A stretch of DNA of 64,000 nt, taken from positions 1 through 64,000 of the forward strand of contig NZ_CVSO01000002.1 of NCBI RefSeq assembly GCF_001180105.1. The letters are read 5' to 3'. Position numbers and translations under genes: made by a program. Numbering within the stretch: the first letter of the stretch is position 1; every line of letters begins with the position of its first letter. Under the pieces are notes generated by a model. That model saw only the letters and a list, made by a program, of their open reading frames with translations. It was not told the DNA's origin and searched no databases. This document shows positions 5,940 to 9,191 of this stretch, piece after piece. The DNA is from Candidatus Pelagibacter communis (GTDB lineage: Bacteria; Pseudomonadota; Alphaproteobacteria; Pelagibacterales; Pelagibacteraceae).

Positions 5940-6851
5940 ATGAAAAAAAGAATTCTTATTCTCGGAGGTGGTATCTCAGGAGAAAGGTCTATTAGTCTCA
6001 AAACTGCAAAAGCAGTGATGAACAGTATTAAAAAAAAATATTATTGTAGAATAGTTGAACCTGACGAAAATTTGACAAAAAATATTGACAGGTTTTCTCC
6101 CCATGTTGTTTTCAACGCTTTACACGGAAGATTTGGTGAAGATGGTTTCATCCAAACTTACTTAGAGAGCAAAGGTCTTAAATACACCCATTCAGGTGTC
6201 CTATCTTCCATGATGGCGATGGATAAAGAAATTTCAAAAAAAATATTCATTAAGAATAAGATTTTAACACCAAAATTTCAAAAAATAAGAATAGATTTAG
6301 ATAAAAAAAAAGTGATAAAATTTTTAAAAAAGAAAATTAAATTTCCTGTAGTTATCAAACCAATTAATGAGGGATCAAGTTTAGGTGTTTATATTTGTAA
6401 TGAAAAAAATATCGTTAAAAATCTTAATAAGCTTAAAGCTTATGATGAAATTTTGGTTGAAGAATTTATACCAGGAAGAGAAATTCAAGTTGCAATACTT
6501 GGAAAAAAAAAGCTAGGAGCAATTGAGCTGAAACCCAAAAGAAAATTTTATGATTATAAGGCGAAGTATAGTTCCAAAGCAAAAACGAAACACATTATTC
6601 CGGTGAATATTAAAATGAAAGAGTATAAAAAAGTGATGAACATTGCTTTGAAAGCTCACAAAGCTTTAAAATGTAGAGGAGTTACCAGATCAGACTTTAA
6701 ATTTTATAAAGGGAAATTTTATCTTTTGGAAACTAATACTCAGCCAGGAATGACAAATCTTTCATTAGTGCCGGAAATAGCATTATACCATGGAATGAAT
6801 TTCTTTTCATTAATAGACTGGATTATCAAAGATGCTTCAAAAAATAGATAA
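5940..6851 (+). CDS. ddl: D-alanine--D-alanine ligase
   Basis: ATP-grasp ligase making the D-Ala-D-Ala dipeptide for peptidoglycan precursors. It starts with ILILGGGISGERSISL, the family N-terminal strand and loop, then has NALHGRFGEDG, the grasp-domain loop KPINEGSSLGVY, EEFIPGREIQV, and near the end the metal and product site LETNTQPGMT. At 303 residues it has standard length. The start ATG follows the murB stop directly, and the end overlaps ftsQ by 20 bases, so the genes are almost certainly one operon. Confidence 0.95.
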   Translation: MKKRILILGGGISGERSISLKTAKAVMNSIKKKYYCRIVEPDENLTKNIDRFSPHVVFNALHGRFGEDGFIQTYLESKGLKYTHSGVLSSMMAMDKEISKKIFIKNKILTPKFQKIRIDLDKKKVIKFLKKKIKFPVVIKPINEGSSLGVYICNEKNIVKNLNKLKAYDEILVEEFIPGREIQVAILGKKKLGAIELKPKRKFYDYKAKYSSKAKTKHIIPVNIKMKEYKKVMNIALKAHKALKCRGVTRSDFKFYKGKFYLLETNTQPGMTNLSLVPEIALYHGMNFFSLIDWIIKDASKNR

Positions 6852-7506
6852 GAAAAATTATATTCTTTTTTACTTTATTATTTTTTTAATTCTATCCTCA
6901 ATACACAATTCAAATTTAAAATTAAATAATTTTTTTAATGTTAAAAAAATTGAGGTTCTTGGTTTAGATAAAAAAAATAGCATAATCTTGGAGAAAAAGT
7001 TAGTTAGTTTAATTGGATATAACATTTTTACACTGAAAAAAGAGTCATTTAATTTTATGAATTCTCTAAATTTTATAAAAGATTATAGTGTTAAAAAAAT
7101 ATATCCTAATCATGTAAAAGTTTTTTTTGAGTCAGCTGAGGCCATTAGTACTATAAAATATTTGAATGAATTAGTTGTTCTAGGAAATAACGGAAAAATA
7201 ATTAAATTAGAAAATTTACCAACCAATGTTCCTAAAATTATTGGTACTAAAAATATAAAAAAAGCTTTTCGAACTTTGAAAATGATAGATAAATCAGATC
7301 TTGAAATTGAAAAAATAATGATAATAGAATTTTTTCCAAGCGAGAGAATAGACGTAGAATTAAGAAATAAAAAAAAAATTAAATTTTCAACAAATTTATC
7401 AGTTGATAATTTTAATTTTGGTTCGAAACTTTTAAATGATGATGAGTTTAATAAATCAAGAATTATTGATTTAAGAATTCCTAATAAGATAATAACTTAT
7501 GATTAA
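6832..7506 (+). CDS. ftsQ: Cell division protein FtsQ
   Basis: Single-pass membrane protein of the divisome that links early and late division proteins through its periplasmic part. After a basic cytoplasmic start there is one membrane helix (about residues 10-25, rich in Phe, Ile and Leu), then a POTRA-like domain starting FFNVKKIEVLGL and a beta domain with PNHVKVFFESAEAISTIKY. At 224 residues it is on the short side for the family, mainly through a short cytoplasmic tail. The call depends partly on position between ddl and the ftsA-like gene, because FtsQ sequences diverge strongly. Confidence 0.85.
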   Translation: MLQKIDKKNYILFYFIIFLILSSIHNSNLKLNNFFNVKKIEVLGLDKKNSIILEKKLVSLIGYNIFTLKKESFNFMNSLNFIKDYSVKKIYPNHVKVFFESAEAISTIKYLNELVVLGNNGKIIKLENLPTNVPKIIGTKNIKKAFRTLKMIDKSDLEIEKIMIIEFFPSERIDVELRNKKKIKFSTNLSVDNFNFGSKLLNDDEFNKSRIIDLRIPNKIITYD

Positions 7507-8203
7507 TAAAGAATATCAATCTTTTTATTTTGCAATAGTTGGTCATAATCTACACATAAATTATTTTAGCTCTAATGACGATAATTTCAATTATCAAAAA
7601 AAATATCTGTTGCCAGACACGATAGATAATAATCTTAATTTAATAATATTATCAAAGTTCATTTCAGAAAAGATTAAAGACTTTGAGAAATATGTTGGAA
7701 ACTTTATTGAAAAAATAAATATAATTACAGATGCTAAATATGATCACTTCTCTTTAAGTCTAAAAAATAAATACGATTCAAATAAGATAAAAGAGACCGA
7801 TGTTGTTAGATTAATTAGTGATGCGAAACAACTTATTGTAAAAAACAATAAAGATTGCATTATACTACATATATTAATTGATAAATACATTCTTGATGGA
7901 AAAGAATATTTAGAATTTCCGGAAAATGTTAGTTATAAAGAACTAATTATTGATGTCAGCTTCATTACAGTTCACAGCTCTACTGTTAAAACATTAAATA
8001 AAATCTTTAAAGATTGTAATATTGAAGTAAAAAAAATCATTAGTTATCAATATTCAAATAAGTTCGCAGATAAAAGTGATATCAGTCCTTGTATCGCAGC
8101 AAAGAAAGTAATAGATGGCATCAACCCATCAGAAGTAATAACGCATAACATGCACACAAAAAAACAGGGTTTTTTCGAGAAAATGTTCAATTTTTTTGGC
8201 TAA
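7499..8203 (+). CDS. ftsA: Truncated FtsA-like division protein lacking the actin ATPase half
   Basis: The 234-residue product occupies the ftsA position after ftsQ but is little more than half the usual FtsA length (about 400 or more). The N-terminal 75 residues resemble a worn-down domain 1A: the phosphate-1 loop normally reading like LDIGTSK is replaced by FAIVGHN. Residues about 80-185 match the order of the FtsA-specific 1C (SHS2) domain: DVVRLISDAKQL, ILHILIDKYILDG, then IDVSFITVHSSTVKTLNKIF. The GGGTTD-type and adenosine-site loops of domain 2 are absent. The last 14 residues, KKQGFFEKMFNFFG, form an FtsA-like amphipathic membrane-anchor helix. The frame is intact, so it is probably a functional reduced protein, not a broken gene. 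Confidence 0.7.
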   Translation: MINKEYQSFYFAIVGHNLHINYFSSNDDNFNYQKKYLLPDTIDNNLNLIILSKFISEKIKDFEKYVGNFIEKINIITDAKYDHFSLSLKNKYDSNKIKETDVVRLISDAKQLIVKNNKDCIILHILIDKYILDGKEYLEFPENVSYKELIIDVSFITVHSSTVKTLNKIFKDCNIEVKKIISYQYSNKFADKSDISPCIAAKKVIDGINPSEVITHNMHTKKQGFFEKMFNFFG

Positions 8204-8270
8204 ATCTTGTATTGTTTTGTAACATAACTTGTTTTTTCTTTGATTTTACAGATGAATATAAGATCTCTTG

Positions 8271-9191
8271 ATGTCAATTTTAAAACAAAAAACTTTAAAA
8301 AAAGAAATAAGTTTATCAGGTATTGGCTTACATTCCGGAAAAAAGGTCAACATTAAACTAATTCCCCAGAGGCCAAATACTGGAATATATTTTAAAAGGA
8401 CTGATATAAAATCTAATAATATTATTTATCCAAGTGTTTTTAATGTATCGAGTGCCTCTTATTGCACTAAAATTTCAAATGAATATGGTGTATCAGTTTC
8501 AACTATCGAGCATTTAATGGCAGCATTATACGGCAAAGGGGTTGACAACTTGCTAATAGAAATTGACTCTGAGGAAGTTCCAATACTTGACGGATCTTCA
8601 AAAAATTTTGTTCAAGCTATAAATTCGACAGGTTTTGAAATAAGTGATCGACCGATCAAAATAATAACAATCAATAAAGAAGTGATTTACAAAGAGGGTG
8701 AAAAATCTATTTCTTTTAAACCAAGCAAGATAAGTTTAGAAATAGATTTTGAAATAAGTTTCAAAAATGAGTTAATCAATACTCAAAAAAATAATATTAA
8801 CATTTATATGGATGATTTGTCGGATATGTATAATTCAAGAACATTTTGTTTATATGAAGATATTGAAAAGCTCAAAAAGTTAAATCTCGCTAAGGGGGGT
8901 TCTCTGGACAACGCAATAGTTGTAAAACAAAACAAAATACTTAATAACGAAAAATTAAGAAATGAAAAAGAATTTGTAAATCACAAGATATTAGATTGTC
9001 TTGGAGACCTATATTTATCAGGTTTTAAAATGGTTGGTAAAGTTACCTCTTGTCATGGTGGCCACAATATCACCAATCAAGGCTTAAGAAAATTACTGAG
9101 CAAAAATGAAAATTTCTCAATTATTGAGCTAAAAGAGAAAAATATTCCTCATTCCTTTTTGAACAAGAATATTCTAAAATCTATCGCGTAA
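8271..9191 (+). CDS. lpxC: UDP-3-O-acyl-N-acetylglucosamine deacetylase LpxC
   Basis: Zinc amidase that commits UDP-3-O-acyl-GlcNAc to lipid A synthesis, so the cell makes LPS. The N-terminal signature SLSGIGLHSGKKVNI is clear; zinc ligands appear as His81 in TIEHLMAALYG and in the later NHKILDCLGD pair, and the catalytic histidine region is SCHGGHN. Length 306 is normal. A TTG precedes the ATG at 8271; I prefer the ATG. It follows the ftsA-like gene with a 67-base gap where ftsZ is found in many alphaproteobacteria. Confidence 0.96.
   Translation: MSILKQKTLKKEISLSGIGLHSGKKVNIKLIPQRPNTGIYFKRTDIKSNNIIYPSVFNVSSASYCTKISNEYGVSVSTIEHLMAALYGKGVDNLLIEIDSEEVPILDGSSKNFVQAINSTGFEISDRPIKIITINKEVIYKEGEKSISFKPSKISLEIDFEISFKNELINTQKNNINIYMDDLSDMYNSRTFCLYEDIEKLKKLNLAKGGSLDNAIVVKQNKILNNEKLRNEKEFVNHKILDCLGDLYLSGFKMVGKVTSCHGGHNITNQGLRKLLSKNENFSIIELKEKNIPHSFLNKNILKSIA

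Follow-up and report, generated by a model that had tools for sequence, protein, structure and literature searches.

The division locus of Candidatus Pelagibacter communis raises the question of whether an FtsA can persist without the parts that make it a nucleotide-binding, filament-forming protein. In the window analysed here (64,000 nucleotides, positions 1 to 64,000 of contig NZ_CVSO01000002.1) the place of ftsA is taken by a frame of 234 codons. Work on model bacteria gives the ATP cycle of FtsA, its polymerisation and its grip on FtsZ a central part in division, and SAR11 bacteria are among the most abundant in the sea. No report of a short or domain-2-less FtsA in SAR11 was recognised among the titles and abstract starts of the open-licence papers listed. 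A previous reading of the sequence alone had described the protein as the SHS2/1C half of FtsA plus the membrane anchor, acting as a plain adaptor in a cell with a complete MreB; a complete mreB is indeed encoded in the window (Table 1).

Identity and anatomy of the short FtsA

The gene order in the window is ddl-ftsQ-ftsA-lpxC, which puts the short gene at the division-cluster position after ftsQ. Its frame starts with ATG and runs uninterrupted to its end, and the eight-base overlap with ftsQ noted by the sequence-only reading was confirmed against the ftsQ frame at 6832-7506. The FtsQ of the window is itself strongly divergent, its POTRA_1 match staying under the cut-off.

The protein matched the Pfam family SHS2_FTSA (PF02491) over residues 94-157 with 27.3 bits, above the cut-off of 25.4, in agreement with the earlier assignment. 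The NCBIfam ftsA model (TIGR01174) was matched with 43.9 bits (E 1.6e-11, profile positions 50-183 of 371), which is far under its equivalog cut-off of 175.85; the long FtsA of the same genus likewise stay under this cut-off. Among PDB sequences a further profile gave four matches at E values up to 10, all of them FtsA. An AlphaFold model based on 54 aligned short forms reached a mean pLDDT of 83.7 and a pTM of 0.78, the C-terminal linker and anchor being weak and the remainder mostly confident. The best fold matches of this model were FtsA structures (Z 13.8-16.7), ahead of PilM (10.7-12.4) and general actin-fold proteins (about 10-11), and the similarity included the 1C/SHS2 part that the sequence-only reading had recognised. 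By sequence, fold and position the protein at 7499-8203 is thus an FtsA, and it fails one tested defining feature, namely domain 2 with the ATP site.

Table 1. Features of the short ftsA gene and of its surroundings in the window
Feature	Position	Strand	Basis
ddl, upstream marker gene	5940..6851	+	TIGR01205 265.2 bits, over cut-off
ftsQ-like gene	6832..7506	+	8-base overlap with ftsA; position and size; POTRA_1 15.9 bits (cut-off 23)
short ftsA, 234 aa	7499..8203	+	open frame; Pfam SHS2_FTSA and NCBIfam ftsA matches; AlphaFold model; fold search
1A, first segment (about residues 5-78), phosphate-1 decayed	7511..7732	+	structural match to FtsA from model residue 2-7 on
subdomain 1C, SHS2 fold (about residues 80-158)	7736..7972	+	PF02491 match 94-157; E. 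coli FtsA 55-195 aligned to profile 48-190
1A, second segment (about residues 160-190)	7976..8068	+	alignments and AlphaFold model
deletion scar, 140-141 residues missing (residues 189-329 of the G187 long form, 2A and 2B)	8069..8086	+	alignment
last helix before the anchor, residues 197-205, retained	8087..8113	+	model helix; structural alignment to 7q6i chain residue 389
GxNxxEV motif, residues 207-213, typical of short forms	8117..8137	+	motif counts, bits per column
C-terminal amphipathic membrane-targeting helix, about residues 222-234, KQGFFEKMFNFFG	8162..8200	+	conservation; model helix 225-233, low pLDDT
lpxC, downstream marker gene	8268..9191	+	TIGR00325 266.9 bits, over cut-off
mreB, complete, 344 aa	35458..36492	+	TIGR00904 481.7 bits, over cut-off, profile 2-330 of 334

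When aligned with mafft to long FtsA of the genus and of a second family of the order, the short FtsA showed a single large internal gap. Domain 1 is complete, comprising 1A as well as 1C, and the protein also keeps the last helix and the anchor, whereas 2A and 2B are absent as a single block. The long-form profile accordingly matched short loci at its positions of about 1-190, and in seven of 15 short-form genomes a second block, at about 345-390, was matched separately. In the fold search, model residues 6-208 could be superposed on chain residues 8-389 of 7q6i_D, the Vibrio maritimus FtsA crystallised with an FtsN peptide (Z 14.4, rmsd 2.4, 199 residues), the alignment extending past the missing domain. 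The description as a 1C half with an anchor was therefore correct for 1C and the anchor and too narrow for the rest, since both 1A segments and the final helix are also present. The size of the loss, previously put at about 180 residues, depends on the reference: it is about 140 residues against the long FtsA of G187 from the same genus and 186 against an E. coli-type model of 420 positions. Against G187 the junction was common to all ten short forms compared, within one residue of aligner placement.

Judged by sequence patterns, the loss of the nucleotide site claimed by the sequence-only reading extends to all 69 intact short forms of the sampled loci. Patterns for phosphate-1, phosphate-2 and the adenosine loop were each found in none of 69 short forms, in 40, 40 and 42 of the 43 long forms of the genus, and in 0, 1 and 6 of the six long forms of the second family. 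These patterns, like the motif patterns below, were custom-written after the alignment had been viewed; the ATP patterns were fitted to the genus, and in the second family two of them fail although domain 2 is kept there. Phosphate-2 and adenosine motifs are absent from the short FtsA because that part of the protein has been deleted, and phosphate-1 is not recognisable. In the second family, the long FtsA (L265-L270) carry DIR and, in most cases, DIQ where phosphate-1 and phosphate-2 normally have glycine, and judging from these residues nucleotide binding may be weakened there as well.

Compared with the known FtsA of E. coli, Thermotoga maritima and V. maritimus (7q6d, 1e4g, 7q6i), the short form shares the gene position, the 1A and 1C folds, the last helix, the anchor and the profile match, and has lost 2A and 2B together with the phosphate-2 and adenosine loops, the site for FtsZ and the contact that builds the longitudinal filament. 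The long FtsA of the genus (368-399 amino acids) occupy the same locus, have a very similar anchor and can be aligned across the whole of domain 1, but unlike the short form they keep domain 2 and, nearly always, the nucleotide patterns. PilM of type IV pili shares an FtsA-like fold with a 1C-type subdomain, and is reported to bind the short cytoplasmic tail of the membrane protein PilN in its 1A-1C cleft (PMC7613929, excerpt); it differs in being longer (chains of 336-357 residues), in having been solved with bound ATP or ADP and in its lower Z scores. The cytoplasmic domain of GspL/EpsL from type II secretion (4pht, 1w97, 5tkw) is likewise a reduced actin-like part at the membrane, but it belongs to another system and the match was weak (query TM 0.33-0.37). 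This GspL/EpsL domain is not known to have a nucleotide function. Fold ranking, PDB sequence matches and the division-cluster context all place the short FtsA nearer to FtsA than to PilM or GspL, and it is best termed a new variant of FtsA, for which the structural claim is strong and the functional claim a reasoned proposal.

Distribution, copy number and selection

To place the short form within the genus, we sampled loci through the neighbouring lpxC, which was matched in 143 of 201 genomes. The 130 loci compared consisted of the window, 120 of the loci from these matches, with contigs carrying long upstream sequence taken first, and nine further loci. They fell into 71 short and 44 long forms, with 15 undecidable loci that were mostly cut by contig ends, and no intermediate was seen. 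Intact frames measured 220-244 amino acids for the short (n=69) and 368-399 for the long form (n=43), counts that omit two short loci and one long locus with broken frames. Shared by 71 of 130 loci, the short length is therefore neither chance nor a local frameshift. In G217 (L230) ddl and ftsQ lie on the strand opposite to lpxC, and in G134 (L244) the other cluster genes searched for were absent from 18.7 kb around lpxC.

We also searched 218 genomes of the genus with a profile (completeness of at least 85% requested, the window's own genome added), and 194 of them matched. Among the 150 matches listed of these 194 we counted at least 109 intact short frames (220-248 amino acids), at least 19 intact long ones and 22 that were cut or broken. 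The other 24 genomes, including G242 (99% complete), were unmatched. A search with PF02491 across the order found FtsA in 72 of 198 genomes from nine genera. Forms of 233-245 amino acids came only from the window's genus, and the other eight genera had long forms; the 61 matches outside the genus measured about 378-420 amino acids, except two at contig ends (G248 and G253). Within the genus, PF02491 recognised FtsA in 11 genomes and failed to do so in at least 20, of which 18 do match the profile built in this analysis; short forms of other genera may therefore have escaped the order-wide search. For the same reason, a short FtsA too divergent for Pfam SHS2_FTSA is easily annotated as "FtsA absent". 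In a scan of named genomes, the matches listed comprised at least 55 loci (at least 36 short, at least 11 long and at least 8 cut), all titled Pelagibacteraceae, Pelagibacterales or Candidatus Pelagibacter. The short FtsA is thus a fixed form that is conserved across many species of one SAR11 genus.

The genome from which the window comes is an assembly of 80 contigs with a completeness of only 78%, which leaves room for the idea that domain 2 was lost by an assembly error or is encoded separately elsewhere. We regard this as very improbable. The short form is also present in the single-contig genomes G114, G234, G239 and G235, it accounts for the majority of the named loci listed above, and the ddl-lpxC distance, although taken in two slightly different ways, falls into two non-overlapping ranges of 1366-1453 and 1831-1928 bases. 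A second FtsA of normal length, which would have spoken against the sequence-only reading, was not detected with the long-FtsA profile in 15 short-form genomes, where the short gene alone was found. Two of these genomes are single-contig, G012 (with a frame-broken short gene) and G114, and in neither did the profile find anything else; the others are drafts of 89-94%, of which G188 and G173 hold only an ftsA fragment at a contig end. In the window's genome the FtsA model found the short gene and MreB and nothing more. A PF14450 match in the same genome was considered as a second FtsA and rejected, as it is MreB.

The gene might also be a decaying remnant that does little while FtsA is being lost. 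The protein does evolve fast: in five pairs from the window's clade, short FtsA identity was 71-75%, compared to 89-93% for LpxC and Ddl. However, dN/dS of the short ftsA was about 0.10-0.29 in ten of ten pairs (dS exceeded 1 in four of them, and one of the two dN/dS methods failed in two), within the range of 0.09-0.44 obtained for ftsQ over the same pairs and near the values of two long-form pairs, while lying above lpxC in all pairs and above ddl in most. The short ftsA is under purifying selection across many species of the genus, and decay is therefore unlikely; together with the many intact frames and the strong conservation of anchor and motif described below, this leads us to rate it as quite improbable. 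A few broken frames were seen, which could be either sequencing errors or real decay: in the complete genome G012 (L071/L099; short, with the frame change in an A-rich stretch), in G172 (L168; short) and in G010 (L134; long).

The anchor, a C-terminal amphipathic helix previously placed at residues 221-234 and here at about 222-234, is conserved in short forms to the same degree as in long ones (3.35 and 3.30 bits per column, respectively); the hydrophobic moment of the last 13 residues of the window's protein is unexceptional alone, about 10% of shuffles reaching an equal value. Between the last helix and the anchor lies the GxNxxEV motif, whose columns carry 2.97 bits in short forms and 1.45 in long forms. 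It was present in 63 of 69 short, 4 of 43 long and none of six second-family forms, and a looser N..E[VIA] pattern in 67 of 69, 13 of 43 and none of six, respectively. Fourteen long forms also have a similar ending of the type ..EV (or ..EI), seven of them being the closest neighbours of the short forms in the FtsA tree. The motif is therefore not confined to short forms, and from this pattern it may predate the loss of domain 2. Subdomain 1C is scarcely more conserved than 1A in short forms (2.16 vs 2.09-2.13 bits).

Origin of the deletion

Two histories can account for the distribution of short and long forms, a repeated loss of domain 2 at the same structural boundary or a single loss followed by exchange of ftsA between lineages. 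We consider repeated loss a tentative reading whose chances are somewhat below even. A tree of 12 neighbouring proteins places the short forms in four places with long forms in between, which amounts to three state changes if domain 2 could return and to four losses if it could not, and none of 200 bootstrap trees (43 rows) unites the short forms; these neighbour-gene trees have long branches at the outgroup and at G122. The boundary of the deletion lies at a domain border, and a grouping of the large short group with its seven long neighbours was not rejected on the FtsA columns (p-AU 0.317).

On the other hand, the tree of the shared FtsA columns keeps the short forms nearly together. On these columns a single short clade was not rejected (p-AU 0.68) and a grouping of the window's clade with the long forms G103 and G145 was weakly rejected (p-AU 0.045), the groups in all AU tests having been named after the trees were viewed. 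Combined with the junction common to ten of ten short forms, the FtsA tree leans towards one deletion and a later exchange of ftsA between lineages. A shared decay of the exposed 1A face could also draw the short forms together in this tree.

FtsZ, candidate partners and proposed function

No tubulin/FtsZ match was found in the window's own genome (78% complete), and a divisome without FtsZ was considered. We rejected it: FtsZ was present in 48 of 61 genomes searched, own genome included, and ftsZ lies about 15 kb upstream of ftsA in relatives, whereas the window is the start of its contig. FtsZ is probably missing from the window's genome because ftsA is only 7.5 kb from the contig start. In all 46 short-form loci holding ftsZ, the protein ends in (L/F/Y)EIPAFLRRQKN. 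Among 25 long-form loci, a comparison that leaves out five of the six second-family rows, 22 had an identical end, two differed in the last letter and one read FEIPAFLRKQKF.

The FtsZ peptide of T. maritima contacts subdomain 2B of FtsA (PMC5256927, excerpt), and deletion of 2B is described to abolish FtsZ binding, with 1C recruiting FtsQ and FtsN (PMC4281207, excerpt). In the filament of FtsA the longitudinal contact is made by IIA-IIB and lateral contacts by IC, and the tail of FtsN sits in the IA-IC cleft (PMC7613929, excerpt). From the anatomy and these published structures it follows that the short FtsA should neither bind ATP nor polymerise longitudinally through IIA-IIB. The statement of the sequence-only reading that no filament is formed is safe for the canonical longitudinal filament only, as the lateral IC-IC contact could survive.

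Our search for partners covered a few families. SPOR matches were obtained in six of 14 genomes (L271-L276) and appeared lipoprotein-like by eye; four of the six proteins match RlpA models under cut-off, one of them also FtsN under cut-off, and two match no NCBIfam family. No FtsN was identified among these 14 genomes, which may nevertheless encode a divergent one, and the best-studied partner of 1C may thus be missing. In L273 a transglycosylase gene (SLT_2, 239.9 bits) overlaps the SPOR gene from upstream. ZapA, an FtsZ partner that is not known to be a membrane tether, was found in 12 of 14 genomes. FtsE was over its curated cut-off in none of 15 genomes, all of which have ABC-ATPase matches, in a search where the controls pass only in seven of 14. 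Among the families tested (SPOR, ZapA, FtsE) no alternative FtsZ tether was identified.

The kept gene and the unchanged anchor suggest that the shortened FtsA serves as a simple, fuel-free adaptor. The best reading, which we consider rather probable, is that the domain-2-less protein is a nucleotide-free, non-polymerising membrane adaptor for septal synthesis. We infer that it has kept membrane binding, the lateral-contact surface of 1C and the 1A-1C cleft for the tail of a membrane partner. It would bind no ATP, form no IIA-IIB longitudinal filament and make no 2B-FtsZ contact, and would sit at the membrane as a monomer or as 1C-1C pairs, where 1C and the 1A-1C cleft would hold partners of septal wall synthesis at the division site. 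FtsQ, encoded by the overlapping gene, would be the first candidate partner. FtsZ would then be tethered by another reader of the same peptide or by a new contact. Caulobacter is also an alphaproteobacterium. It recruits FtsA late, with other FtsZ-binding proteins arriving earlier (PMC8429850, excerpt), which makes a loss of the tether role of FtsA easier to imagine.

Several findings count against this adaptor reading. No FtsN and no replacement tether were identified in the families tested, 1C is hardly above 1A in conservation, and two of the custom ATP patterns also fail in the second family. The FtsA-type peptide of FtsZ is also kept in all 46 short-form loci, which would be unexpected for an FtsA that has lost FtsZ binding. 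The short FtsA might instead still be the FtsZ tether, with the peptide binding to a new site such as GxNxxEV or the 1A face formerly under domain 2. The unchanged peptide, the enrichment and conservation of GxNxxEV in short forms and the lack of another tether in the few families tested are consistent with this. We nevertheless think it unlikely, though well worth keeping in mind: the 2B deletion abolishes FtsZ binding in other bacteria (PMC4281207, excerpt), the retention of the peptide may be due to other proteins that read it, such as ClpX (PMC5256927, excerpt), and the 14 long forms with a ..EV or ..EI ending all have 2B.

Returning to the adaptor, at least 109 species-level genomes have lost the parts known to serve the ATP cycle, polymerisation and the grip on FtsZ but preserve the remainder of FtsA, which is complete in close relatives. 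The short FtsA is in this respect a natural separation-of-function experiment. It sets the adaptor role of domain 1 apart from the dynamics of ATP and filaments, and the prediction is that FtsZ has either a different tether or one that has been relocated. We give about an even chance to the broader proposition that these bacteria would divide with a divisome lacking an ATP-binding, polymerising FtsA, in which the FtsZ peptide would be read by a new site centred on GxNxxEV or by an unrecognised tether and the ATP-driven polymerisation of FtsA would be dispensable for division.

In the complete genome G012, mraZ, ftsZ and rsmH (mraW) stand in succession (L099:572-3537, NCBIfam matches over cut-off), and ftsZ heads the division cluster and does not adjoin ftsA. 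At L099:5514-8381 a single frame of 955 amino acids has a murE match in the first half followed by a murF match in the second, with 951 bits to the MurE/MurF bifunctional model, just under the cut-off of 1023, and is an apparent murE-murF fusion.
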